The notes under the pieces were generated by a model. That model did no database searches. It worked only from the letters and a program-made list of their open reading frames with translations, and was not told the DNA's origin. The position numbers were made by a program, and so were the translations under genes. 64,000 bases of DNA from an uncultured Geobacter sp. GTDB taxonomy: Bacteria > Desulfobacterota > Desulfuromonadia > Geobacterales > Geobacteraceae. This document shows, piece after piece, positions 30,035 through 43,512 of this stretch (position 1 is its first letter; each line of letters opens with the position of its first letter). The DNA lies in contig CAIYDQ010000095.1 of assembly GCA_903925075.1 (NCBI GenBank), positions 1 to 64,000 of the forward strand, in the 5' to 3' direction.

Positions 30035-30180
30035 CAGTCGGGTATGACAACGGAGCGGGTAGGATGCGGTGAGGTACGAACCGCATCGGTCTGGGAATGA
30101 TGGAGAATGATAACGGAGGCTCGGGAGTTTGGGAACACCCGATGCGCCAAGACGGGGTGCGCCCCTTACCGGAGGTCAGC

Positions 30181-31089
30181 ATGGATACCATACGCAAGAT
30201 CAGCAAGGTCTGGAAGAGCAAAGCGACTATCGAGGGGGCGGGGGTGCACCTGAAGCGCGCCTTTGGCTATTATCAGGTGCCGCTTTTCGACCCTTTCCTG
30301 CTCTTGGACGATTTTCACTCGCCGAACCCGCCGGATTATCTAAAAGGGTTTCCGTGGCACCCGCACCGCGGCATCGAGACCATCACCTACGTGCTGAACG
30401 GCCGGGTTGACCACGGCGACAGCATGGGCAATCAGGGGGTGATCGAGTCGGGCGATGTGCAGTGGATGACCGCCGGCAGCGGCATCATCCATCAGGAGAT
30501 GCCGCGCGGCGACCAAGCCGGCCTGATGTGGGGCTTCCAGCTCTGGGCGAACCTCCCCGCCTCCCACAAGATGATGGCTCCGCGCTATCGAGGCCTGGTC
30601 GCGGCGGAGATCCCGGAGGTGACCTTGCCGGGGGATGTGCGGGTGAAGGTGATCTGCGGCGCGGCCGGGGGCGTTCACGGACCGGTGCGGGACGTGGTGG
30701 TCGATCCCGAGTATCTGGACGTGACCGTGCCAGCGGAGACGACGTTTACCCATCCCATCAAAAGCGGCTATACGGCCCTTGCCTATGTGGTCGAGGGGGA
30801 AGGGTATTTCGATCCGGAGAGAAACGCCTTCTCGCATGAGGTGGTGGGTAACAACTATTTCGATTTTCATCGTCAGTGCGCCTGCAGCGCGGAAAACCTG
30901 ATCCTGTACGGGGACGGCGACGCGGTGACGGTGACGACCCAGGCGCGTCCGGTCCGGTTTCTCCTGGTATCGGGAAAGCCGATAGGTGAGCCGGTAGCCT
31001 GGTACGGTCCCATCGTCATGAATACCCAAGAGGAACTGCGAGTGGCCTTCGAAGAATACGAGAATGGGAGCTTTATCAAGAAACTTTGA
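30181..31089 (+). CDS. Pirin-family bicupin protein
   Basis: The 302-residue protein has the pirin N-terminal cupin with the metal-binding set: His-59/61 region PWHPHRGIETITYVL, the HGD motif, and GSGIIHQEMP with the next His and Glu. The C-terminal cupin (pirin_C) runs from about 170 to 290. Pirins include quercetin-type dioxygenases and redox-sensing regulators; which applies is unknown. The ATG has GGAGGTCAGC upstream; the open frame begins 84 bases earlier without support. Confidence 0.9.
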   Translation: MDTIRKISKVWKSKATIEGAGVHLKRAFGYYQVPLFDPFLLLDDFHSPNPPDYLKGFPWHPHRGIETITYVLNGRVDHGDSMGNQGVIESGDVQWMTAGSGIIHQEMPRGDQAGLMWGFQLWANLPASHKMMAPRYRGLVAAEIPEVTLPGDVRVKVICGAAGGVHGPVRDVVVDPEYLDVTVPAETTFTHPIKSGYTALAYVVEGEGYFDPERNAFSHEVVGNNYFDFHRQCACSAENLILYGDGDAVTVTTQARPVRFLLVSGKPIGEPVAWYGPIVMNTQEELRVAFEEYENGSFIKKL

Positions 31090-31100
31090 ATCAAAACTGC

Positions 31101-31225
31101 TGGCCACGGAGAAAGTCCGAGAAAATCTGAGATAAACCTGCAAAGCGGCAAGCACGGAGCAAGCGGGTAGCGGAGAATCATGCAGCTATCAAGGTTTTCT
31201 CGGATTTATTCAGATTTTCTCCGTG
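31101..31225. repeat. Inverted repeat with CCACGGAGAAA arms between pirin and hydrolase genes
   Basis: CCACGGAGAAAGTCCGAG, followed by AAAATCTGAGATAAA, appears again in inverted form as TTTATTCAGATTTTCTCCGTGG (end near 31223). The arms lie some 60 bases apart and are imperfect. The right arm reaches into the 3' end of the minus-strand hydrolase gene (stop at 31210). It may serve as a terminator region for the two convergent genes. Confidence 0.6.
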
Positions 31226-32088
31226 GCGAATGGTTCGTCTTTCCGGCTGACGAACCGGTCGATGATGGCGAAGGTTTCCACCGGCTTTTCCTCCTGCGGG
31301 TTGTGCCCGCACTCCTCGATCACCTCCAGTTTCGATCCGGGGATGGCGGCCTGCAATCTGGTCCCTTGCGAAAGCGGCACTATCTTGTCGTGGCGCCCCC
31401 AGAGTAACAGCACCGGAAGGCTGAGCTCGCCGTAGCGCGCCGCGATCTGATCCTGATCCGGCGGCACCAGCCGTCGGCAGGTCTCAACCAGCGCCCTCTT
31501 CGCGTCTCGATCACGGTAGCAGGGGGCATAGCGGGCGATGTGCTCGCGGTCTACCAGGCTCTGGTCGTAATAGGCGACTCGCAGCCCGACCTTCACCCAG
31601 GCATCCGGAGCGTAGAGCGCGACGAAGAGCGGCCCGGCCAGCGGCATCCGAAAAACCTCGGCGATAATGGGGAGCCGCTGGAGGTATCCGGGGCCGGCCA
31701 TGATCACCATCGAGCTGAGTAGATCGCTCTTGCCGGCGAGCATCGCCTCGATGGCGGCAAGCAGCACTACGGCCCCGCCCAAGGAATGCCCCACCAGCGT
31801 CACCCCCGAGAGCGACTTTTGTTCCAGGAAAAAAAGGAGCCTTTCGCTGTGCGCCCGGATGGAATAATCCGCTCTTTTGGGCTTGGACGATTCCCCGGAA
31901 CCCAGGAGGTCAAGGAGGTAAAGGGTGTAGCTATCGGCAGGGAACAAAGGCACCAGGTCCGTCCACTCCTCGGAGCGGGAGGCGAGCCCGTGCACCAGGA
32001 CCAGCACAGCCGGGCCGTTTCCGTAGATGCGGTAGCGGAGCGTCTCGTTTGTCGAGATAGTGCATTCATAAAGGGGCAGGTTTTTCAT
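31210..32088 (-). CDS. Alpha/beta hydrolase
   Basis: The 292-residue product has the alpha/beta-hydrolase fold with oxyanion HG (LVHGLASRSEEW), nucleophile Ser in VGHSLGGAV (near 101), Asp in WGRHDKIVP and His in ECGHNPQEE. No signal peptide. The substrate is unknown; ester, lactone or C-C hydrolase are all possible. It ends inside a repeat arm. The gene is divergent from the CYTH gene at 32205. Confidence 0.88.
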   Translation of the reverse strand: MKNLPLYECTISTNETLRYRIYGNGPAVLVLVHGLASRSEEWTDLVPLFPADSYTLYLLDLLGSGESSKPKRADYSIRAHSERLLFFLEQKSLSGVTLVGHSLGGAVVLLAAIEAMLAGKSDLLSSMVIMAGPGYLQRLPIIAEVFRMPLAGPLFVALYAPDAWVKVGLRVAYYDQSLVDREHIARYAPCYRDRDAKRALVETCRRLVPPDQDQIAARYGELSLPVLLLWGRHDKIVPLSQGTRLQAAIPGSKLEVIEECGHNPQEEKPVETFAIIDRFVSRKDEPFATEKI

Positions 32089-32204: not shown

Positions 32205-32675
32205 ATGGGCCAAGAAATCGAGCGAAAATTCCTGGTAAATGGCGATGAATGGCGGTCGGGCAAGGTAGCTCATACCTGCCAAGGTTATCTCGTTACCGGC
32301 AATGACACCACCGTCCGGGTCCGGTTGAAGGACGACAAGGGATATCTGACTATCAAAGGCAAGGCCGAAGGGATTAGCCGACTTGAGTATGAGTACGAGA
32401 TCCCGATCGCGGACGCCAAAGATATAATGGATCGTCTCTGCATAAAGCCGCTTATCGAAAAAAAGCGCTACGAAGTCGAGCATCTCGGCATCCTATGGGA
32501 AGTAGATGAGTTTTTCGGGGAGAACGAGGGGTTGATAGTGGCGGAGGTTGAACTCGAATCGGAAGATCAGCAGGTGGAACTCCCTTCGTGGGTAGGTAAA
32601 GAAGTCTCCGACGATAGAAGGTATAGCAACTTGAGCTTGGTCAGATACCCGTTCTCACAGTGGAAGAAAGAATGA
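32205..32675 (+). CDS. CYTH-domain phosphohydrolase (tripolyphosphatase-like)
   Basis: The 156-residue product begins with the CYTH signature EIERKF (Glu4, Glu6, Lys8). Charged strands follow at RVRLKDDKGYLTIKGKA and YEYEIP, with a C-terminal EVELES and DRRYSN. The tunnel-fold family binds triphosphates with divalent metals; short bacterial members are usually tripolyphosphatases or act on organic triphosphates, not adenylate cyclases. The ATG has GGGGAGGATCTGG upstream. ppk1 lies 8 kb away. Confidence 0.88.
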   Translation: MGQEIERKFLVNGDEWRSGKVAHTCQGYLVTGNDTTVRVRLKDDKGYLTIKGKAEGISRLEYEYEIPIADAKDIMDRLCIKPLIEKKRYEVEHLGILWEVDEFFGENEGLIVAEVELESEDQQVELPSWVGKEVSDDRRYSNLSLVRYPFSQWKKE

Positions 32676-32797: not shown

Positions 32798-34261
32798 TTG
32801 CTCTCACGCATTTTGATCATCAGCACCAGCCGCGAACTCGCCCCTCAGCCGACCGTTCCCATCGGGGCTGCCTGGGTTGCGGAGGCGCTCCGGCTTGCCG
32901 GATTTTCCGTGAAACTCCTGGACCTTTGCTTCGAAAAGCACCCGCTGCAAGCGATCGATCGGGCTCTTGCCGGCTTTCGGCCGGACGGCATCGGCCTTTC
33001 CGTCAGGAACCTCGACAATTGCGATTTCCTCTCCCCCATCTCCTTCCTCCCCGAACTGAAACAAATCACCGATTTCCTGAAAACCAGAAGCAACGCGCCC
33101 ATGCTTTTGGGAGGCGCCGGGGTAAGCGTCATGCCGAAAGAACTTCTCGACTACCTGCAACTCGATTTCGCGGTGGTCGGAGAGGGTGAAAGGGCGGCCG
33201 TCCTGTTCTTCGCATGCCTTGGAGAGCCGGCTAAGGCGGCCCTGATTCCGGGCGTCGTTTGCAGGGGCGGAACCGGGAAAAAACAGGCGTGCCAGGAGCG
33301 ACTTTCGCCCAGCGCCTTCGTGATGCCGCGGATGCACGACTGGATCGACACCGGCCGCTACCTTGGGTTCGAGCCGGCGCTTCCCGTACAAGGGAAAAGG
33401 GGATGCGCCAACCATTGTCTCTACTGCACCTACAACAAGATCGAAGGGGCGAGTTGGCGGTTGAGGGAGCCCGGCGCGGTGGTCGAAGAAATTTCCAGCG
33501 CCATGCGCAACACCGGCGCCAGAGAATTCGAGTTCGTCGACAGCATCTTCAATCAGCCGGAAGGTTACCTCGAAGCCTTGCTGGAAGAGATCCTGAGAAG
33601 CGAATTGCAGGCGAAATTCAGCGTCTCTTCGCTTTCGCCCAAGGGACTGACCAAAGGGCAGGTGAGGCTGATGGAACGATCGGGGATGACTTCGCTGGTG
33701 ATCACCCCCGAGACGGCGTCCGATGTGACGCTCGGCGCGCTCAAAAAGGATTTCACGGAAGAAGACGTGATGCGCGCCGCCGAGTTGATCTCCTCCTCCA
33801 GCATCAAGGCTTTGTGGTGTTTTCTTCTGGGCGGGCCGAAAGAGGATGAAGGCACGCTGGTCAAGACCATCGGCTTTATCAACGGGAGCCTCGGGAAAAA
33901 AGACTCCGCCTTCATCACCACCGGGATCAGGATCTATCCGGGCACCGGGCTGCATGAATTGGCCATCCGGGAAGGCGTGGCGGCGGCCGCAGACGATCTG
34001 CTGATGCCGCGTTTCTACTTCAGTCCCGAAATCTCCCCGCAAAAGGCGAGGGAGACGCTGCGGAAAGGGGTATCGGATCTCTCGCGCTGCATCTTCTTAT
34101 CCGACACCCGGCAAAGCTCCCTCGGCGTTTGGCGCCGCATCGGCGCCATGCTCGGTCTGCCGACGCCGTTTTGGCGCTACGCGGGTTACATGAACCGGCT
34201 TGCCGGCAGCAAGCGGGTAATCAGCCGCAATTGGTCGCTCCCCCCGGCAGCGCGGAAATAA
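32798..34261 (+). CDS. B12-binding-domain radical SAM protein
   Basis: The 487-residue product begins with a cobalamin-binding Rossmann-like domain (about 1-150) and then a radical SAM core with CANHCLYC (Cys203, Cys207, Cys210). Class B radical SAM enzymes of this type typically methylate unreactive carbons or rearrange rings. The TTG at 32798 is preferred since GGAGG lies 5 bases upstream and the B12 domain begins at once (LLSRILIISTS); an ATG at 32777 lacks a ribosome site, and upstream frame is repeat. It heads the run of genes that ends with the type III PKS. Confidence 0.85.
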   Translation: MLSRILIISTSRELAPQPTVPIGAAWVAEALRLAGFSVKLLDLCFEKHPLQAIDRALAGFRPDGIGLSVRNLDNCDFLSPISFLPELKQITDFLKTRSNAPMLLGGAGVSVMPKELLDYLQLDFAVVGEGERAAVLFFACLGEPAKAALIPGVVCRGGTGKKQACQERLSPSAFVMPRMHDWIDTGRYLGFEPALPVQGKRGCANHCLYCTYNKIEGASWRLREPGAVVEEISSAMRNTGAREFEFVDSIFNQPEGYLEALLEEILRSELQAKFSVSSLSPKGLTKGQVRLMERSGMTSLVITPETASDVTLGALKKDFTEEDVMRAAELISSSSIKALWCFLLGGPKEDEGTLVKTIGFINGSLGKKDSAFITTGIRIYPGTGLHELAIREGVAAAADDLLMPRFYFSPEISPQKARETLRKGVSDLSRCIFLSDTRQSSLGVWRRIGAMLGLPTPFWRYAGYMNRLAGSKRVISRNWSLPPAARK

Positions 34262-34312
34262 TGTGTTACAATGCAACCGCGCTCACATGAGCGAGATGAG
34301 GGGGGATCTCTA

Positions 34313-35191
34313 ATGAAATCAGACGCCATGAAGCCTTGGAGCTTTTTAAATTGTATTTCCGGAAGGTCCGGTCAGGTAGCCTTTTGCCGCGGCGGAGCAT
34401 CACCGTTCACCGGACCAGTTGCCATCTCCCTTTTGTTCTTCTGCGCGCTGTTTTTCTGGTGGCGCCCGCTGCAGGCGGCACCTGTGGCGGTCCGCTTCAC
34501 CGAAGGGATGGTGCGCGGCTTTCTGATGGTGAGCGACACCAAGGGCGTCCGCATCGCGTCGGGCGATTTTCTTCAGAGCAGCCGGCCGGGGGAGGTCAAG
34601 TGCCGGACGCTGCTGCATTTCAAGGACGGCTCGCTGCACGACGAGACGGCGGTATTTTCCCAGCAGCCCAATTTTCTCTTGAAGCACTATCATCTGGTGC
34701 AAAAGGGGCCGGCGTTCGACGCCGACATGGATATCTCGGTGGAGCGGACCACCGGAAAGTATCTGGTCAAGACCAAGGCGCACAAGGACGGAAAGGAGAA
34801 GGTGTTGGAGGGGAAGCTCGATTTGCCGCTCGACGTCTATAACGGCATGGTGCCGACGGTCGCCAAGAATCTGGCACAGGGAGCCAAAGAGACCATCCAC
34901 ATGATCGCCTTTACGCCTGCGCCCAAGGTGATCGAGTTGGAGATGACGCCTTCGGGCGAGGACAAGGTACTGATCGGCGATCTGAAAAAGACGGCGGTCC
35001 ACTATGTTCTCAAGCCGAAACTGGGCGTCGTGCTCGGCATCGGCGCGGCGCTGGTCGGGCGCACCCCGCCGGACAACCACATCTGGATCATCACCGCGGA
35101 CGTCCCCGCTTTCGTGCGCTTCGACGGGCCGCTGGCCCCCGACCGCCCTGTCTGGAGCATCGAACTTACCAGCCCGGTTTGGGTTAAATAG
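34313..35191 (+). CDS. Exported protein of unknown function
   Basis: The 292-residue product has an N-terminal extension and then a hydrophobic segment (about 36-52) ending in PLQAAPVA, which looks like a signal peptide or anchor. The remaining 240 residues form a beta-rich soluble domain with no Cys-based site and no known catalytic motif. The phrasing (GDFLQSSRPGEVKCRTLLHF) resembles periplasmic DUF3108-type proteins only weakly. It sits in the PKS locus, 14 bases before the methyltransferase, and might bind a lipophilic product. Confidence 0.7.
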   Translation: MKSDAMKPWSFLNCISGRSGQVAFCRGGASPFTGPVAISLLFFCALFFWWRPLQAAPVAVRFTEGMVRGFLMVSDTKGVRIASGDFLQSSRPGEVKCRTLLHFKDGSLHDETAVFSQQPNFLLKHYHLVQKGPAFDADMDISVERTTGKYLVKTKAHKDGKEKVLEGKLDLPLDVYNGMVPTVAKNLAQGAKETIHMIAFTPAPKVIELEMTPSGEDKVLIGDLKKTAVHYVLKPKLGVVLGIGAALVGRTPPDNHIWIITADVPAFVRFDGPLAPDRPVWSIELTSPVWVK

Positions 35192-35205
35192 GGGCCGGCC
35201 CGCAC

Positions 35206-35949
35206 ATGTTCTTCGTTCCCGAGAAAAGAACCTCGCCGGAATTCCTGGATCTTTCCCCCGAGGCCTACCGCCCCGCCGAGCTTGAGGGGAGCCTGGCCGA
35301 CATCAGGGTGGTGAACCGCTATCTGGGCGACCGGCGCGCGCTTTTGAAGCACCTGTCGGCGAAGCTCGCAGCTTGCGGCTGCGCCGACCTCTCCGGGTCC
35401 TCCGGGACCGCGCCGGCTTTTACCGTGCTCGATATCGCCACGGGCTCGGCGGACATTCCCGTGGCGATCGCCGACTGGGCCAGAAAGGCCGGGCTCGCCG
35501 CCGCCATCACCGGGGTGGACATCAACGACCAGACCATCGAAATCGCGCGCAAGCAGACGGCTCGATATCCGGAGATAACGCTGCAGGTGGCGGACGGCCT
35601 TCGCCTGCCGTTTCCCGACAAAAGCTTCGACTTCGTTCTTTGCAGCAAAACCGCCCACCATCTGGACGATGCCGACGCCGTCCGTCTGATACGGGAGATG
35701 CTCAGGGTCGCCAGGCGGGGCTACCTCGTCATGGACCTGAGGAGAAGCTGGATCGCTTACGGCTTGATTTATCTTTTGACCAGGGTATTCACCCGCAACC
35801 GCCTGACCCGTAACGATGGGCCGCTTTCGGTGCTGAAGTCGTTCACCCCAAACGAGTTGGCCGCGCTCGCTGCCGGCGCGGGCGCCTCCGCTTTCACGAT
35901 AACGAGAGAACCTTTCTGGCTGCTGGTCCTTTCAGGAGAGGTCGCATGA
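35206..35949 (+). CDS. UbiE-like SAM-dependent methyltransferase
   Basis: The 247-residue class I methyltransferase has motif I VLDIATGSADIPVAIAD (near 74-90), the acidic strand-2 end GVDINDQ and the post-motif stretch LPFPDKSFDFVLCS. Its build is that of enzymes that methylate quinone or phenol precursors. The stop overlaps the start of the U32 gene (ATGA), so coupled synthesis is expected. In combination with the type III PKS it is a good candidate for ring or O-methylation. Confidence 0.87.
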   Translation: MFFVPEKRTSPEFLDLSPEAYRPAELEGSLADIRVVNRYLGDRRALLKHLSAKLAACGCADLSGSSGTAPAFTVLDIATGSADIPVAIADWARKAGLAAAITGVDINDQTIEIARKQTARYPEITLQVADGLRLPFPDKSFDFVLCSKTAHHLDDADAVRLIREMLRVARRGYLVMDLRRSWIAYGLIYLLTRVFTRNRLTRNDGPLSVLKSFTPNELAALAAGAGASAFTITREPFWLLVLSGEVA

Positions 35950-37163
35950 AATTTTCCGTCGCCACCAATTTCCAACCCGACCTGCTGGATGCCCTCGACG
36001 GCTATCCGGTTTGCGAATTGTTCGGCAAACTCCCTTCCGACAGCGTCGGCGGCGGGCGCGCTTCGTTCATGCTGGCGCCTCTTAGCAAGCGGCAATTCAG
36101 GGCGCACGTGCAAAACGCCTCCCGAAAAGGGATCGGCTTCAACTACCTGGTCAACCCGGCCTGTCTGGACAACCGGGAATACACCCGGCAGGGGCAGGCC
36201 GGGCTGGAGCGCCTGCTGGGCTTCGTGGAGGATTGCGGGGTGACGGCGGTGACCATTTCGCTCCCCTTCCTGATGCCGATCATCAAGAAAAGGCACCCGC
36301 GGCTCAAGGTGCGGGTGGGCGTGTACGCCCGCGTGGACGGCGTGGCCAAGGCCAGGTTCTGGGAGGAGTTGGGCGCGGACTGCATCACCCTGGAGTCGAT
36401 TGCCGTGAACCGCGACTTTCCGATGCTGAAGGCGATCCGGCAGGCGGTGCAGCTGGAACTGCAACTCATTGTCAACTCGAATTGCCTGATTTTCTGTCCC
36501 CTGTCGGGGCAGCACATGGTGAACCTCTCGCACGCCTCCCAGAAGGGGCACCAAAGCCGCGGTTTCATGATCGATTACTGCGCCCTCAAATGTTCCTCGG
36601 AAAAATTGGCCGACCCCTCCAACTACCTGCGCTCGGAGTTTATCCGGCCCGAGGATCTGGATTTGTACACCGATCTCGGCTTTGACTCCTTCAAGATCCT
36701 GGAGCGCGGCGCTCCTACCGGCGTGCTGGCCAAGAGGGTGCAGGCCTATGCGCAACGGCGCTTCGACGGCAACCTGCTGGATCTGATTCAGCCTTACGGC
36801 TACAAGGGGGTAGCCAAGGGGACGGCCGGCAATCTGGCGAACCTGTCGAAGTTTTTGAAATATTTCTTCAGGCCCGGCGTCGTGAAGCACGGCTCGGTCA
36901 TGCGGCTCAAAGAGCTGGCGGAGAAGCGGGGACTGATCGCGGGGATGGACTGGGACCCGGTCTATCTCGACAACAGGGCGCTGGACGGGTTTCTGGCCGG
37001 CATGAAAAATATCCATTGCCGGGAGACGGACTGCTCGGCGTGCGGCTACTGTGCTAAGTGGAGCGAGAAGGCGGTGCGGGTCGACGAGAAGTTTCGCGCC
37101 GAGATGCTGCGGCTCTATGGCGAGGTCTTCGGCGATATGTATTCCGGCAAGATGTGGGGCTAA
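35946..37163 (+). CDS. U32-family (UbiU/UbiV-like) iron-sulfur protein
   Basis: The 405-residue TIM-barrel-type protein belongs to the 'peptidase U32' superfamily. Cys180, Cys184, Cys212 and Cys216 (NCLIFC and DYCALKC) are placed like the [4Fe-4S] ligands of UbiU/UbiV. A further Cys-rich tail (CRETDCSACGYC, near 360) is an added feature. In E. coli, UbiU-UbiV hydroxylate the ubiquinone ring without oxygen; other members modify tRNA or rRNA. Its place between a methyltransferase and a type III PKS suggests action on an aromatic product. Confidence 0.82.
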   Translation: MKFSVATNFQPDLLDALDGYPVCELFGKLPSDSVGGGRASFMLAPLSKRQFRAHVQNASRKGIGFNYLVNPACLDNREYTRQGQAGLERLLGFVEDCGVTAVTISLPFLMPIIKKRHPRLKVRVGVYARVDGVAKARFWEELGADCITLESIAVNRDFPMLKAIRQAVQLELQLIVNSNCLIFCPLSGQHMVNLSHASQKGHQSRGFMIDYCALKCSSEKLADPSNYLRSEFIRPEDLDLYTDLGFDSFKILERGAPTGVLAKRVQAYAQRRFDGNLLDLIQPYGYKGVAKGTAGNLANLSKFLKYFFRPGVVKHGSVMRLKELAEKRGLIAGMDWDPVYLDNRALDGFLAGMKNIHCRETDCSACGYCAKWSEKAVRVDEKFRAEMLRLYGEVFGDMYSGKMWG

Positions 37164-37196
37164 AAGCATGTGCCTCAATCCGTGTGAGACACCTTT

Positions 37197-37202
37197 TATA
37201 AT
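37197..37202 (+). promoter_or_regulatory. Candidate -10 element ahead of the type III PKS gene
   Basis: A perfect TATAAT occurs in the 54-base gap between the U32 and PKS genes, 15 bases before the PKS start. No good -35 lies 17 bases upstream (CTCAAT). If used, the PKS would have its own promoter with a very short leader. Confidence 0.35.
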
Positions 37203-37217
37203 GTTAGATCAGGGGGA

Positions 37218-38318
37218 ATGATGCAAGAAAGGGATGACAGCCACAGGCTTGCGAACTGCATGTGCGGCGACGGCGCTTTTGTGGCCTCCATCGCCACGGC
37301 GACGCCGCCTTTCAGCGCGGATCAGAAATTCGCCGCTCAACTGATGAAAGAGCATTTCGGGGAGCGCCTGACCCAGAGAAGCCTGGGGCTGATCAGGGCG
37401 ACTTTCTCGCATCGAAGCATCCGCAAGAGGCATTTCGCGGTCGAGGATCCGGCGCAAATAATCAACGAATCCGCCGATCAGCGGGTAGCCCGCTTCACCG
37501 AGAAGTCGGTGGAACTGGCCTCGCAGGCGGTCGCCAAGGCGCTGGATCAGGCGGGGCTGGGCGTTTCGGAGGTGAAAGGTGTGGTGGTCAACACCTGCAC
37601 CGGCTATATCTGCCCCGGAATTTCCACCTATCTGCTGGAGCGGCTGGGGCTGCCGCGCAACATCCGGGTGTACGACATGGTGGGGAGCGGCTGCGGAGGA
37701 GCGATCCCCAATCTCCAGGTGGCGGAGTCGCTGCTGAAGACCCTGGGCGGTCCGGTGGTCAGCGTATCGGTGGAGATCTGCAGCGCCGCCTTCCAGATGG
37801 GGGACGATCTCAGCCTCATTCTGTCCAACGCTCTTTTCGGCGACGGCGCAGCGGCTGCCGTGCTCTGCCGCGAGCCGCGCGGCTTCGAGTTGATCGCCTC
37901 GGCGGGGCGCTACCTCCCTGAGCAGCGCGAATCGATCAGGTTCGTTCACAAGCAGGGCCAACTTCACAATCAGCTCGCCACCGACCTGCCGGACCTGGTG
38001 AGGAAGGCCGCGGCGGGAGTGGTGGAGGACCTGCTGGCGGCGGCAGCGCTGAAGCCGGACGACATCGGGCATTGGGCGCTGCACACCGGGGGCGAAAAGA
38101 TCATCAACGCGGTGCGGGACGAGATCGGCATCCCGGAAAAGCATCTCTGGGCGACTCGCAAGGTCCTCTCCAACTACGGCAACATGTCCTCGCCCACCGT
38201 CTGGTTCGTGCTGGATGAACTCCGGCAAAGCGGCATCCGCCCCGGGGAGTGGTGCGTCATGCTCTCCTATGGGGCCGGCCTTTCCGCCCACGCCTATCTG
38301 CTGAGAAAAACAGCCTAG
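37218..38318 (+). CDS. Type III polyketide synthase
   Basis: The 366-residue thiolase-fold enzyme shows the catalytic triad of chalcone-synthase-type PKSs: Cys159 in GSGCGGAIPN, His289 in ALHTGGEKI and Asn322 in SNYGNMSSPT. Spacing from His to Asn is 33 residues, as in plant chalcone synthase. The N-terminal half reads VVVNTCTGYICPGIS, as in type III PKSs rather than FabH. Bacterial homologues make alkylresorcinols, alkylpyrones or phloroglucinols from acyl starters and malonyl-CoA. GGGGGA lies just before the ATG pair. The gene is convergent with the radical SAM gene at 38315 (4-base overlap). Confidence 0.88.
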   Translation: MMQERDDSHRLANCMCGDGAFVASIATATPPFSADQKFAAQLMKEHFGERLTQRSLGLIRATFSHRSIRKRHFAVEDPAQIINESADQRVARFTEKSVELASQAVAKALDQAGLGVSEVKGVVVNTCTGYICPGISTYLLERLGLPRNIRVYDMVGSGCGGAIPNLQVAESLLKTLGGPVVSVSVEICSAAFQMGDDLSLILSNALFGDGAAAAVLCREPRGFELIASAGRYLPEQRESIRFVHKQGQLHNQLATDLPDLVRKAAAGVVEDLLAAAALKPDDIGHWALHTGGEKIINAVRDEIGIPEKHLWATRKVLSNYGNMSSPTVWFVLDELRQSGIRPGEWCVMLSYGAGLSAHAYLLRKTA

Positions 38319-39730
38319 AATTTGTGCCGGGAGCGGAACTGGTCGCCGGTGAACCAGCCGCGTATCAAATCGAAATTGTTCAGCAGCACCTTGAGCGCGC
38401 CTTTTTCCCTTCTTCTGACAAAATAATTGCCGAAAAACATATTCGGACTGAAAAATGCTTTGATGTTTTCCCAGTTCATGAGGCGGTTCAACTGGCCAAC
38501 GGTCAGGTGCTTGGTCCTCACGTTGCACATAAACCCGGTGTACCTGCTCAGGTCGTCGGGGTTGGTGACCAGGCCCGCGTCCAGCAGTTCCCGGCGGATC
38601 TGGGTTCCCGGGTAGGGCGTTACGCACTGCACGTAGGGGAGGTCGATTCTCAGCCTCTTGGAGGCGCGGAAAACTTCCCTGATCTCTTCGCGGTTGTCGT
38701 CCGGATTGCCGATGATGAAGCCGCCCATCACCCCGATGCCGTTTTCCCGCAGGCTTCGCACGGCCTGATCCGTCTTTTCCCGGATGTCCCCTTTTTGAAA
38801 GAGCTGGAGATTTTTCGACAGCACGCTCTCTATGCCCAGAAACACCATGGCGAAGTTGGCGCGTGCCAGCGCCGGTATCAATTCCGGGTCGGCGACGATG
38901 CCGGCCACCGAGGCCTGCACCAGATACTCCATGCGATCCAGGCCGTTCTCGACGATGGCTTCGGCCAGGCGCCTGAAGCGGGAGGCGTCCAGGGTGATGT
39001 TGTCGTCCACCAGCAGGACCGTTTCGGTCCCGCGCCGCCGCAACTCGGTCAGGTCCGCTATCACCCGGTCGATGGTATGGCAGCGAAAGCTGGCGCCGTA
39101 CATGCCGGTGATGGAGCAAAAGGTGCAGGGCATGGTGCAGCCGCGCGAGCTCTCCACGCAGTCCAGTTTGCGGTCGAAGTATTTGAAGTCGTCCAAGACG
39201 CGAACGCTGCGGTCGGGGAGCGGCAGTTGCCGCAGGTCGAGGAGCTCGCCCTGCGGGTTGTGCCGAAATATTCCCTCCCGCGCCCAGGATAGCCCCGGTA
39301 CGCCGGCCAGTTCCCGCTTGCCGTCAAGGGCGTCCACCAGGGCGGGGAAGGCACGCTCTCCTTCGCCGCGGATGAGAAAGTCGAAGGGAGGCGCTGCCGC
39401 TTCGGCCAGCTCCGCATAGCACAGGGTCGCATGGTAGCCGCCTACCACGATCTTCGCCTGCGGCGCGTATAACCTGCAGATGGCCATGACGGTAACCGCG
39501 CTTTGGTATTGAAAGCTCATGCTGCTGATGCCGATCAATTCAGGCCGGTACTCTTCAAGTAAGTTCTTCAGCCAGACACGGATATTCTTATGGACCAATA
39601 CCAGGTCGGCTAATTTTACTTCGTGCCCGTCAAGTTGAGCTGCGATTGAGCAAAGCCCCAAGTTGGGGACCTTTATGATGCGATGGAAGTTGTTGGCGGC
39701 ATCCGGCATGGCCACAAGCAGTATTCTCAT
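38315..39730 (-). CDS. B12-binding-domain radical SAM protein (second)
   Basis: The 471-residue class B radical SAM protein has an N-terminal cobalamin-binding domain (about 5-140, with VVGGYHATLCYAE) and the core motif CTMPCTFC near 198. It ends in a DUF4080/HpnJ-like C-terminal region with a conserved tail of aromatic residues. It lies on the opposite strand to the PKS, tail to tail, but belongs functionally to the same gene group by type. It may methylate or rearrange the product. Confidence 0.85.
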   Translation of the reverse strand: MRILLVAMPDAANNFHRIIKVPNLGLCSIAAQLDGHEVKLADLVLVHKNIRVWLKNLLEEYRPELIGISSMSFQYQSAVTVMAICRLYAPQAKIVVGGYHATLCYAELAEAAAPPFDFLIRGEGERAFPALVDALDGKRELAGVPGLSWAREGIFRHNPQGELLDLRQLPLPDRSVRVLDDFKYFDRKLDCVESSRGCTMPCTFCSITGMYGASFRCHTIDRVIADLTELRRRGTETVLLVDDNITLDASRFRRLAEAIVENGLDRMEYLVQASVAGIVADPELIPALARANFAMVFLGIESVLSKNLQLFQKGDIREKTDQAVRSLRENGIGVMGGFIIGNPDDNREEIREVFRASKRLRIDLPYVQCVTPYPGTQIRRELLDAGLVTNPDDLSRYTGFMCNVRTKHLTVGQLNRLMNWENIKAFFSPNMFFGNYFVRRREKGALKVLLNNFDLIRGWFTGDQFRSRHKF

Positions 39731-40797: not shown

Positions 40798-41088
40798 TCT
40801 TGATTTTCGGCAAATCGTCAGCTAGTTTTGCCGATGCCAACGCCCTTGATTGTCGCAACCGTGATACCACGTGTTGATCATGATCAGGGGCTTTGCTTTG
40901 TCCCTTGCCTTTAACTCAACCCTCCAATCACTAATTCGCAGCTGCTCACTAGATAGAAATTTTACTGTCAGTAGTGACCACTGCTTTTCATCCTGATTGC
41001 CTTTATCTCGTAATGGTGTCAGAATACGGATCAGTGTGAGCATTTAGTAGACAGCAGGTGATTGAGTGTAAGCATTCGGAGATACCCG
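40798..41088. other. AT-richer intergenic island
   Basis: The 290 bases are clearly lower in GC than the flanks. A minus-strand open frame (40822-41043, 73 codons) has no ribosome site or recognisable domain; it might be a relic. The promoter of ppk1 should lie in its right part. Confidence 0.4.
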
Positions 41089-43512
41089 GTGATTGAGACA
41101 AAGACGATTAAACGGCAAGAACCACTTCCCGAACTGGATCCTATGCCGTCGCCTCCCGCAATTGAGAAGCCTAAAGCACTCAAACCCAAAGCTGACAAAA
41201 CCAAGCTTTTAAAGCTGAAGACGGCGAAGCCAAAGTCGGCAGCAGCGAAGCCAAAGTCGGCAACAGCGAAGCCAAAGTCGGCAACGGCGAAGCCAAAGTC
41301 GGCAACGGCGAAGCCAAAGTCGGTAACGGCGAAGACAAAGCTCGCAAAACTGAAGCCCGGCAAGCAGCTTTCGCCCGAGGACATGGAGACGGCGCTGCCG
41401 AACGAAGGGCAGATCGATCTTGGCGATAGCGAATGGTATCTGAACCGCGAGTTGACCTGGCTTGAGTTCAATCGCCGCGTGCTGCATGAGGCGATCGACG
41501 AGCGGACGCCTTTATTGGAGCGGTTGAAGTTCGTCGCCATCGTCAGCGCCAACCTCGACGAATTCATCATGAAGCGAATCGGGGGACTCAAGCAGCAGAT
41601 CGGCGCCGGCATGCACGACCTGACGCTGGACGGCCGCACGCCGCGTCAGCAGGTGATCGAGTGCCACGCCTCGATACGCGAGATTCATGCGCGCAAGCGG
41701 GAAGCCTTCAATCAGGTGCGCGAGCTCTTGGAACAAAAAGGGATCGTCATCGAGAGCTATCAGACGCTCACCGCCAAAGAAAAGAAGCATCTGCGCGAGC
41801 ATTACTACACCAACATCTACCCGCTGTTGACGCCGCAGTCCATCGATCCCGCCCATCCTTTCCCGTTCATCTCCAACCTCTCTTTGAACCTGCTGGTGAC
41901 GCTGCGCTACCCGAAGGCCCGCGAGGTGTCGCTTGCCCGGGTCAAGGTGCCGGTAGGCCTGGGCTCCCCGCGTTTCATCCGGGTCGGCAAGGGAGACCAT
42001 TTCATCCCGCTGGAAGAGGTGATGATGAACAACCTGGACATGCTCTTCCCGGGGATGCACATCGTCGCCTGCGAGATTTTCCGGGTCACCCGCAACGCCA
42101 ACACGGAAAAGGACGAGGAGGAGGCCGACGACCTGATGGCGATGATCGAGAGCGAGCTGAAAGAGCGCCGCTTCGCTCCCATCGTTCGCCTGGAGATCGG
42201 CGAGGGGATGGAGGCGCTGCACCGGGGACGGCTGGCTGCCGAGTTGGAACTGGACGAGGCCAACGACGTGGCCGAGGTGATCGGCATGTTGGCCATGCGG
42301 GACCTGTTCGAGCTTTCCAGACTCGACTACCCGCGCCTGCACGATCCGGCGCACCACCCGATCGATCACCCCCAGCTCCTGACCACCCGCAACATTTTCC
42401 ACACCATTCGCGACTCCGGGTCCGTCCTTTTGCAGCACCCCTACGTCTCCTTTTCCACCACGGTGGAGCGCTTTCTGCGGGAGGCGGCCACCGATCCCAA
42501 GGTGCGCGGCATCAAGATGACCCTGTATCGGACCTCCAGCCAGAGCCGCATTATCGAGGCGCTGCTGCAGGCGGCCCAAAACGGCAAGCAGGTGGCGGTG
42601 GTGGTGGAATTGAAGGCGCGCTTCGACGAGGCCACCAACATCCGCCTGGCGGAGCAGATGGAGGAGGCCGGCATCCACGTGACCTACGGCGTGGTGGGGC
42701 TGAAGACTCATTGCAAGGTGACCCTGGTCGTTCGGCAGGATTTTCAGGGATTGCGGCGCTACGTGCACATCGGCACCGGCAATTATCACGCCGAGACGGC
42801 GCGCATCTACAGCGACGTGGGGCTTATCACCTGCGACGACACCATCGCCCAGGACGTTACCGAGCTTTTCAACTACCTCACCACCGGTTTCACGGCCAGG
42901 CGCAACTATCGGGCCATCGTGCCCGCACCCAGGCTTTTGAAAAAGGCGCTCCTGATGCGGATCGAGCGGGAGGTCGCGCTGCATGCCGAAAGCGGCGGCG
43001 GGCTGATCCAGTTCAAGATGAACGCGCTTGAGGACGGCGACATCGTCAAGGCGCTCTACCGAGCCTCCATGGCGGGGGTGAAGATCGACCTTTACGTGCG
43101 CGACACCTGCAGGCTCAGGCCCGGCATCGCCGGGGTATCCGACAACATCCGCGTGGTCAGCATCGTCGGGCGTTTCCTGGAACACGCCCGCATCTACTAT
43201 TTCAAAAACGGCGGCGCGGAGGAATATTTCATCTCCTCAGCCGACGCCATGAAGCGCAATCTTGAGGCGCGGGTGGAGATTCTCTGCCCGGTGGCCGACC
43301 CGGAATTGACTCAAGAGCTGCGCAAGATTTTCGACTGCTACGACGCGGACCGGCGCTCGGCTTGGGACATGCAGTCCGACGGCAGCTACATCCAGCGCCA
43401 TCCGGCCGAGGGAGAAAGCGGCGAAGGAACGCACCAGATGCTGATTGCCCAGGCGGAGAAGCGGCTGAAGGAATCTCTGAAACTGAAGAAGAAGCCGAAG
43501 CCGCACCGCTGA
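41089..43512 (+). CDS. ppk1: Polyphosphate kinase (PPK1)
   Basis: PPK1 reversibly makes polyphosphate from ATP. The 807-residue product has the four PPK1 domains in order; the active-site His is in YVHIGTGNYHAETARIYSD and the second His in RFLEHARIYYF. It has an added N-terminal tail of about 90 residues, Lys- and Ala-rich, with five copies of a KPKSA(T/A)A heptapeptide (21-bp DNA repeats at about 41223-41340), which is not part of the enzyme. The GTG at 41089 has GGAGA 6 bases upstream; a TTG at 41062 is weaker. Confidence 0.92.
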   Translation: MIETKTIKRQEPLPELDPMPSPPAIEKPKALKPKADKTKLLKLKTAKPKSAAAKPKSATAKPKSATAKPKSATAKPKSVTAKTKLAKLKPGKQLSPEDMETALPNEGQIDLGDSEWYLNRELTWLEFNRRVLHEAIDERTPLLERLKFVAIVSANLDEFIMKRIGGLKQQIGAGMHDLTLDGRTPRQQVIECHASIREIHARKREAFNQVRELLEQKGIVIESYQTLTAKEKKHLREHYYTNIYPLLTPQSIDPAHPFPFISNLSLNLLVTLRYPKAREVSLARVKVPVGLGSPRFIRVGKGDHFIPLEEVMMNNLDMLFPGMHIVACEIFRVTRNANTEKDEEEADDLMAMIESELKERRFAPIVRLEIGEGMEALHRGRLAAELELDEANDVAEVIGMLAMRDLFELSRLDYPRLHDPAHHPIDHPQLLTTRNIFHTIRDSGSVLLQHPYVSFSTTVERFLREAATDPKVRGIKMTLYRTSSQSRIIEALLQAAQNGKQVAVVVELKARFDEATNIRLAEQMEEAGIHVTYGVVGLKTHCKVTLVVRQDFQGLRRYVHIGTGNYHAETARIYSDVGLITCDDTIAQDVTELFNYLTTGFTARRNYRAIVPAPRLLKKALLMRIEREVALHAESGGGLIQFKMNALEDGDIVKALYRASMAGVKIDLYVRDTCRLRPGIAGVSDNIRVVSIVGRFLEHARIYYFKNGGAEEYFISSADAMKRNLEARVEILCPVADPELTQELRKIFDCYDADRRSAWDMQSDGSYIQRHPAEGESGEGTHQMLIAQAEKRLKESLKLKKKPKPHR

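Follow-up and report, generated by a model that had tools for sequence, protein, structure and literature searches.

A conserved cluster of a type III polyketide synthase, a U32-family protein and two B12 radical SAM enzymes in Geobacterales, a candidate oxygen-independent pathway to alkylresorcinols or polyketide quinones

The window analysed here is a stretch of 64,000 nucleotides of an uncultured Geobacter sp. (GenBank assembly GCA_903925075.1, contig CAIYDQ010000095.1, positions 1 to 64,000). It is part of contig C95, in an assembly of 6.55 Mb and 368 contigs, genome G000 in our numbering of genomes (G) and loci (L). The subject is a cluster of six genes, which encode a type III polyketide synthase (PKS), a UbiE-like methyltransferase (MT), a protein of the U32 family, two B12-binding radical SAM proteins (RSAM1 and RSAM2) and an exported-type protein (EXP). 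Counts of genes across genomes rest on tblastn and profile searches.

Layout and gene products

An earlier, sequence-only reading of the window had named the six genes of Table 1. All are open, and their coordinates agree with the open reading frames (ORFs); the convergent orientation of RSAM2 had not been mentioned. MT and U32 overlap, as that reading had noted; the overlap measures 4 bp, like that of PKS and RSAM2, and the gap between U32 and PKS measures 54 bp. The start chosen for RSAM1 fits its homologues, most of which begin to align at residue 44-50 of the long ORF.

Table 1. Genes and sites of the cluster, in window coordinates
Feature	Position	Strand	Remarks
RSAM1, B12-binding radical SAM protein	32798..34261	+	ORF opens with GTG at 32660; homology starts near 32798
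EXP, exported-type protein	34313..35191	+	ORF opens at 34271
MT, UbiE-like methyltransferase	35206..35949	+	nearest NCBIfam model PRK06202
U32-family protein, proposed O2-independent hydroxylase	35946..37163	+	PF01136
Proposed first [4Fe-4S] site of U32	36483..36593	+	codons of Cys180, Cys184, His190, Cys212, Cys216
Proposed second cluster of U32	37017..37052	+	codons of Cys358, Cys363, Cys366, Cys369 (CX4CX2CX2C)
Type III PKS	37218..38318	+	Chal_sti_synt domains, catalytic triad
PKS triad codons	Cys159 37692-37694; His289 38082-38084; Asn322 38181-38183	+	
RSAM2, second B12-binding radical SAM protein	38315..39730	-	convergent with PKS

The PKS matches PF02797 with 78.0 bits and PF00195 with 51.9 bits (cut-off 27 for both). 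Its triad, which had been described as intact, is invariant in 17 aligned orthologues. MT reaches 148 bits with PRK06202, under the cut-off of 243. It is 37% identical to the MT of a Paludisphaera locus and is homologous to the methyltransferases of the aerobic loci described below. Both radical SAM proteins have a B12-binding and a Radical_SAM domain and the motif CX3CX2C (in RSAM1 at residue 249 of the long ORF), in agreement with their earlier placement in class B. EXP is present as a gene and has no match in Pfam or NCBIfam; the label 'exported' comes from a hydrophobic N-terminus in the alignment, and export is predicted on that basis. The AlphaFold model of EXP, made up mostly of strands, was set aside as poor (pLDDT 40.9).

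The U32 protein is a remote member of its family (PF01136, 33.7 bits, cut-off 22.4). A profile of its subfamily, run against seven references, scores TrhP best with 27.7 bits, while UbiU reaches 7.1 and UbiV -2.5 bits. The structure model is good (pLDDT 83.6), and residues 1-258 match the U32 structure 5d88 (Z 19.0 over 228 residues, root-mean-square deviation 3.0 A; next best Z 15.5). The C-terminal part, hardly covered by structure matches, carries CX4CX2CX2C. The UbiU/UbiV-type cysteine spacing reported for this protein from the sequence did not hold in detail: the pattern is C180x3C184x27C212x3C216 plus the C-terminal motif. UbiU has CX6CX16CX38C and UbiV CXnCX12CX3C, with one cluster in each subunit of the heterodimer (PMC6747719). 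The motif CX6CX15CX3/4C of U32 hydroxylases is not fitted by the window protein, and UbiU and UbiV themselves vary (PMC6747719).

Across 17 aligned members, drawn from Geobacterales, Nitrospirota, Gemmatimonadota, Nitrospinia and Omnitrophota, ten positions do not vary (Cys 73, 180, 184, 212, 216, 358, 363, 366 and 369, and His190). When a larger set of 28 was aligned separately, Cys212 was replaced in six and Cys358 was Ser in one (L083); the others are kept, and 27 of the 28 retain all four C-terminal cysteines. This pattern suggests two iron-sulfur clusters in one chain.

Conservation and U32-FAD exchange in Geobacterales

The sample of the order comprised 141 genomes. Some PKS match at E <= 0.001 is found in 139 of them, mostly at 25-30% identity and from the wider synthase family; the term orthologue is used for matches at >=66% identity, which occur in 30 genomes (as a fragment in G110). 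The order RSAM1-(EXP)-MT-U32-PKS-RSAM2 is kept in the window and in 17 of the 29 other PKS genomes, with EXP in 12 of the 17. Chance is excluded as the source of the gene set because the same gene order stands in 17 relatives, and the search of other Geobacterales proposed earlier as a check thus shows a set that is not limited to one genome. Named carriers are Geomonas species and Citrifermentans bremense; Geobacter metagenome-assembled genomes (MAGs) are among the named relatives. Two congeners that have no PKS orthologue (G036 and G042) lack U32 and RSAM2 too.

A second layout is seen in 11 of the remaining 12 genomes, where a divergent RSAM1 counterpart (35-38% identical) adjoins the PKS, and the twelfth is the G110 fragment. 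RSAM2, U32, a DUF2147 protein and a second PRK06202-type methyltransferase (MTb) surround this pair in varying part, on contigs several of which are short. The best NCBIfam match of RSAM1, and of the sole second-layout counterpart that was scanned, is TIGR04072 ('lipid biosynthesis B12-binding/radical SAM protein', a ladderane-cluster family). Both miss its cut-off of 360, with 331.1 and 333 bits, respectively. The cluster as a whole was also considered as a ladderane-type pathway; this was rejected, as RSAM1 alone resembles that pathway, and does so under the cut-off.

RSAM2 (E <= 1e-130) occurs in 28 of the 141 genomes, 27 of which have the PKS orthologue. In the remaining one (G072) it lies beside a type III PKS other than the orthologue. 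A small methyltransferase there scores 20.8 bits with the isoprenylcysteine methyltransferase model (cut-off 160). At L061:5271-8262, RSAM2 (74% identical) is close to a different type III PKS, with a small methyltransferase resembling isoprenylcysteine methyltransferases. RSAM2 thus appears to accompany two kinds of type III PKS. The best NCBIfam scores of the window's RSAM2 are with BchE (named a cyclase) and HpnR (named a methylase), both far under the cut-offs.

U32 (E <= 1e-60) is present in 24 of the 141 genomes, and all 24 are among the 30 PKS carriers (Fisher 8e-22, kinship ignored). Six PKS genomes have no full U32 match. Four of these (G052, G065, G085, G119) have a flavin adenine dinucleotide (FAD) monooxygenase at E <= 1e-20; G094 has the first 33 U32 codons at a contig end, and G110 is represented by a contig of 3.4 kb. 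At the same threshold no FAD monooxygenase is found in the 24 U32 genomes of the order, G000 included. Six genomes were listed by the FAD search, namely the four, G055 (a weak match of 28%) and G109 (a fragment without PKS orthologue). The FAD gene directly adjoins MTb in all four FAD genomes. The pair is inside the PKS locus in G065 and G085, on another contig in G052 and about 26 kb from the PKS in G119. The FAD monooxygenase gene of G119 (L133:8485-9686) is split over two overlapping frames, by decay or assembly error.

Genera g23 and g25 contain both U32 and FAD genomes. In the PKS tree of the order, from which the G110 fragment was excluded, the FAD rows fall in four places and imply four changes, at least two of which are forced by well-supported branches. 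The FAD enzyme of G065 is a PF01494 (FAD_binding_3) protein, and the exchanging enzyme carries GxGxxG, DG and GD motifs, which mark class A aromatic hydroxylases. A peptidase function of the U32 protein was judged unlikely, given that it exchanges with a flavin enzyme.

The U32 family includes characterised RNA hydroxylases, and TrhP gave the best of the seven subfamily scores. An RNA-modifying enzyme of the TrhP/RlhA type, placed by chance next to a biosynthetic cluster, is nevertheless highly improbable. The presence of U32 tracks the PKS and excludes the FAD monooxygenase, which is not expected of an RNA enzyme, and among three more PF01136 proteins of the same genome there is a separate TrhP-like one (39% identical to TrhP of E. 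coli). A U32 protein that modifies RNA only, named in the sequence-only reading as an outcome that would refute its inference, is thereby made unlikely. Another U32 protein of this genome (L087, G000:C32:26314-26925) is cysteine-rich and shares a 3.6 kb stretch with an ORF that reads as ABC-exporter-like (by reading only).

The flanks of the cluster recur as well. Among the 17 same-layout relatives, a pirin gene (30097-31089 in the window) is a neighbour in 14, an alpha/beta hydrolase gene (31210-32088) in 16, and a gene read as polyphosphate kinase (41062-43512, by reading only) adjoins the cluster in 15. No functional link of these three to the cluster is claimed.

Other PKS loci and known operons

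A sample of the phylum with 395 genomes was searched for type III PKS (PF02797 at E <= 1e-8) and for the U32 subfamily (E <= 1e-50). The former occurs in 32 genomes, the latter in 40 and both in 15; where the U32 match reaches >=460 bits, ten of ten genomes (own included) have a type III PKS. Outside the order, 34 PKS loci were inspected. U32 lies directly beside the PKS in five (L115, L116, L117, L118, L180) and 3 kb off in L114, and the order U32-MT-PKS is found in L119 and L120 (U32 42%, PKS 39 and 35% identical to those of the window). A class A FAD gene stands directly beside the PKS in L181, L185 and L187, and a weaker FAD match in L199-L201. None of the 34 loci has U32 and FAD together. 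At the level of genomes (U32 at E <= 1e-20, class A FAD at E <= 1e-60), 31 PKS genomes outside the order comprise 14 with U32, three with class A FAD, none with both and 14 with neither. Family f6 includes G360 with PKS-FAD, and G401 and G440 with the PKS and an unlinked strong U32.

A PKS tree of 54 rows (L204 excluded, 17 other rows of the order unused) places the U32 label in both deep halves and forces at least seven changes. The count of changes is inflated by short contigs (L178, L179) labelled 'none', and L199-L201 are labelled FADa though their FAD match is weak and another FAD profile fits better. RSAM1 counterparts adjoin the PKS outside the order in G476, G145, G469 and G198; the RSAM1-PKS pairing is therefore old.

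Further U32-subfamily loci show other arrangements. Tandem pairs of U32-subfamily genes occur at L121:2928-5326 and L122:9075-11431, and one gene of each pair has Pro in place of Cys212. These pairs, which recall the UbiU-UbiV pair, adjoin genes that cluster with LuxC/LuxE- and FAD-like genes of L123. In an Omnitrophota MAG (L083:893-11182) four B12-radical-SAM-like genes (by blastp only) precede a U32 member over about 9 kb.

From the top matches to PKS and MT in plasmid records, eleven loci were chosen by hand and opened; two of them (L144, L147) are unannotated. PKS, MT and FAD stand together in six of the eleven, from Caballeronia, Paludisphaera, Deinococcus psychrotolerans, Sphingobium, Methylobacterium and Deinococcus radiodurans. 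The overlapping genes of Paludisphaera (L139) run MT-FAD-PKS, which is exactly the order of the window with FAD in the U32 slot. The Microvirga locus has PKS, MT and an 'NAD-binding' protein, and those of Phyllobacterium and Sphingomonas have PKS and an isoprenylcysteine-type methyltransferase. No U32 match was obtained in the plasmid records. Three FAD enzymes of Geobacterales are 33-38% identical to those of the two Deinococcus loci (E 8e-46 to 8e-60).

HidABC and planctomycete operons of MT, FAD oxidoreductase and type III PKS make alkylresorcinols (PMC10896814). The HidABC/planctomycete gene order is that of the window (PMC10896814), with an FAD oxidoreductase where the window has U32; Hid was likened to the window by gene content. 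Polyketide quinones from operons of this kind are electron carriers at low oxygen in actinobacteria, and their synthesis includes an oxidoreductase step (PMC9927152). The pkqA-C genes of Mycobacterium smegmatis and SrsABC of Streptomyces griseus resemble the window in combining a type III PKS, a methyltransferase and a tailoring oxidation enzyme (PMC9927152), a comparison by gene content. Their oxidation enzyme is a hydroxylase or oxidoreductase (PMC9927152), whereas the window has U32 and two added B12 radical SAM genes.

A type III PKS and a methyltransferase in one operon, the mark by which the three-gene Pkq/Srs/Hid pathway was tested for, are present in the window and the 17 relatives. 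The operon has no FAD oxidoreductase and has U32 in that place, and is therefore a variant, not a member, of the Pkq/Srs/Hid pathway. No description of a type III PKS-MT-U32-B12 radical SAM system was found in the literature searched, which covered few subscription journals and no supplementary files; the sequence-only reading, too, had known of none.

Proposed pathway and its significance

The cluster is probably (at roughly 65%) an oxygen-independent version of the type III PKS-methyltransferase-oxidoreductase pathway for alkylresorcinols or polyketide quinones, in which the U32 protein would act as an O2-independent hydroxylase in place of the flavin monooxygenase. Replacement of an oxygenase by U32 had been suggested from the sequence. 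It is supported by the co-occurrence in 24 of 24 genomes, by the exclusion of the FAD monooxygenase within the order and of its class A relatives outside it, and by the shared slot in aerobic operons, all of them tests that might have come out otherwise; the chemistry assigned to it is conditional. Type III PKS enzymes are makers of rings, and that of the window would form an alkyl-bearing phenolic or pyrone ring. The UbiE-like MT may then methylate the product. U32 would add a ring hydroxyl without O2, by means of two iron-sulfur clusters in one chain, one of them a [4Fe-4S] cluster. The oxygen donor would probably be prephenate, as proposed for UbiU/UbiV (PMC11574389). In some relatives this hydroxylation step would be carried out by the FAD monooxygenase. 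Oxidation of the hydroxylated product could give a quinone. RSAM1 and RSAM2 probably modify the ring or chain further, most likely by methyl transfer to carbon.

With UbiU-UbiV, as with TrhP and RlhA, the window protein shares the U32 domain, conserved cysteines and the proposed O2-independent hydroxylation that replaces flavin hydroxylases. It differs from UbiU-UbiV in being one chain of very distant sequence, with another cysteine spacing and the additional C-terminal CX4CX2CX2C.

Several observations weigh against the proposed pathway. The cysteine spacing is unlike that of characterised U32 hydroxylases. Neither U32 nor class A FAD is present in 14 of the 31 PKS carriers outside the order. 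Hydroxylation is therefore not a universal step, and the PKS nearest to that of the window (51-72% identical) sits in five of these genomes (G476, G458, G469, G198 and G145, the last 79% complete). In six of the 14 U32 genomes outside the order the gene is unlinked to the PKS, with strong matches in G401 and G440 and matches of 245-266 bits in G286, G310, G356 and G398. Two of them, G356 and G398, have in addition a second PKS with a weak FAD match next to it; the statement that no genome has both therefore holds for class A FAD enzymes only. COX1 does not split U32 from FAD genomes within the order. It is present in 29 of the 30 PKS genomes, including all four FAD genomes, and the sole exception (G092) has U32; for this reason COX1 was rejected as a marker of aerobic life.

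U32 members also occur apart from the PKS. A weaker member is found in 25 of the 363 PKS-negative genomes of the phylum sample, and some PKS-free members lie beside LuxC/LuxE-, homocitrate-synthase- and aconitase-like genes. The U32 member of L130 is beside ketoacyl synthase (KAS) genes, and this locus also has MT. For the members of Nitrospirota, Gemmatimonadota and Omnitrophota, the stretch read contains no PKS match. In a Nitrospirota MAG (L078:9147-13047), the genes after MT and U32 encode a polyketide-cyclase/START-like protein and a KAS that scores above the FabF cut-off. Pfam was run on this one of the three Nitrospirota loci. A type II polyketide synthase beside the Nitrospirota MT-U32 pair was suggested at first; as the KAS passes the FabF cut-off, it is kept as a lead only.

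The U32 protein could belong to the PKS pathway and exchange with the FAD enzyme, and still catalyse a reaction other than ring hydroxylation, such as oxidation of the chain, oxidation of an already hydroxylated ring or another oxidation that involves no oxygen insertion by flavin. The subfamily members near LuxC/LuxE- and homocitrate-synthase-like genes are consistent with this, and expression did not resolve what the FAD oxidoreductase does in the planctomycete operon (PMC10896814). The exchanging enzyme, however, is a PF01494 protein with the motifs given above, and the characterised U32 enzymes are tied to hydroxylation (PMC11574389, PMC6747719). Such another oxidation is considered unlikely.

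The nature of the product is a further point. In some other bacteria, alkylresorcinols are lipids of the envelope or of cysts. The product might similarly be a structural phenolic lipid or a pyrone and not a redox quinone, with hydroxylation as mere decoration and the exported protein placing the lipid in the envelope. This would be compatible with the exchange of U32 and FAD, and exported-type proteins (EXP and DUF2147) are indeed found in the clusters. Hydroxylation of a resorcinol ring can, however, yield a hydroquinone, and operons of like gene content make electron-carrier alkylquinones (PMC9927152). A structural role is regarded as somewhat unlikely.

A more specific form of the oxygen-independent pathway is put forward tentatively, at a little less than even odds. 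It would be a strictly O2-independent polyketide-quinone pathway with a new two-cluster U32 subfamily, repeatedly swapped with flavin monooxygenases in the type III PKS operons of anaerobes, and would give Geobacterales a second, non-isoprenoid quinone pool or a secreted redox lipid carrying modifications made by B12 radical SAM enzymes.

If the proposed pathway is correct, the replacement of flavin hydroxylases by U32, as in UbiU/UbiV, would extend from ubiquinone to polyketides. The exchange would also be a natural experiment on the function of U32, because the same step seems to be carried out by two unrelated catalysts. Direct testing is possible because named strains (Geomonas species and Citrifermentans bremense) carry the cluster. 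A new redox lipid would be added to organisms that are studied for extracellular electron transfer.

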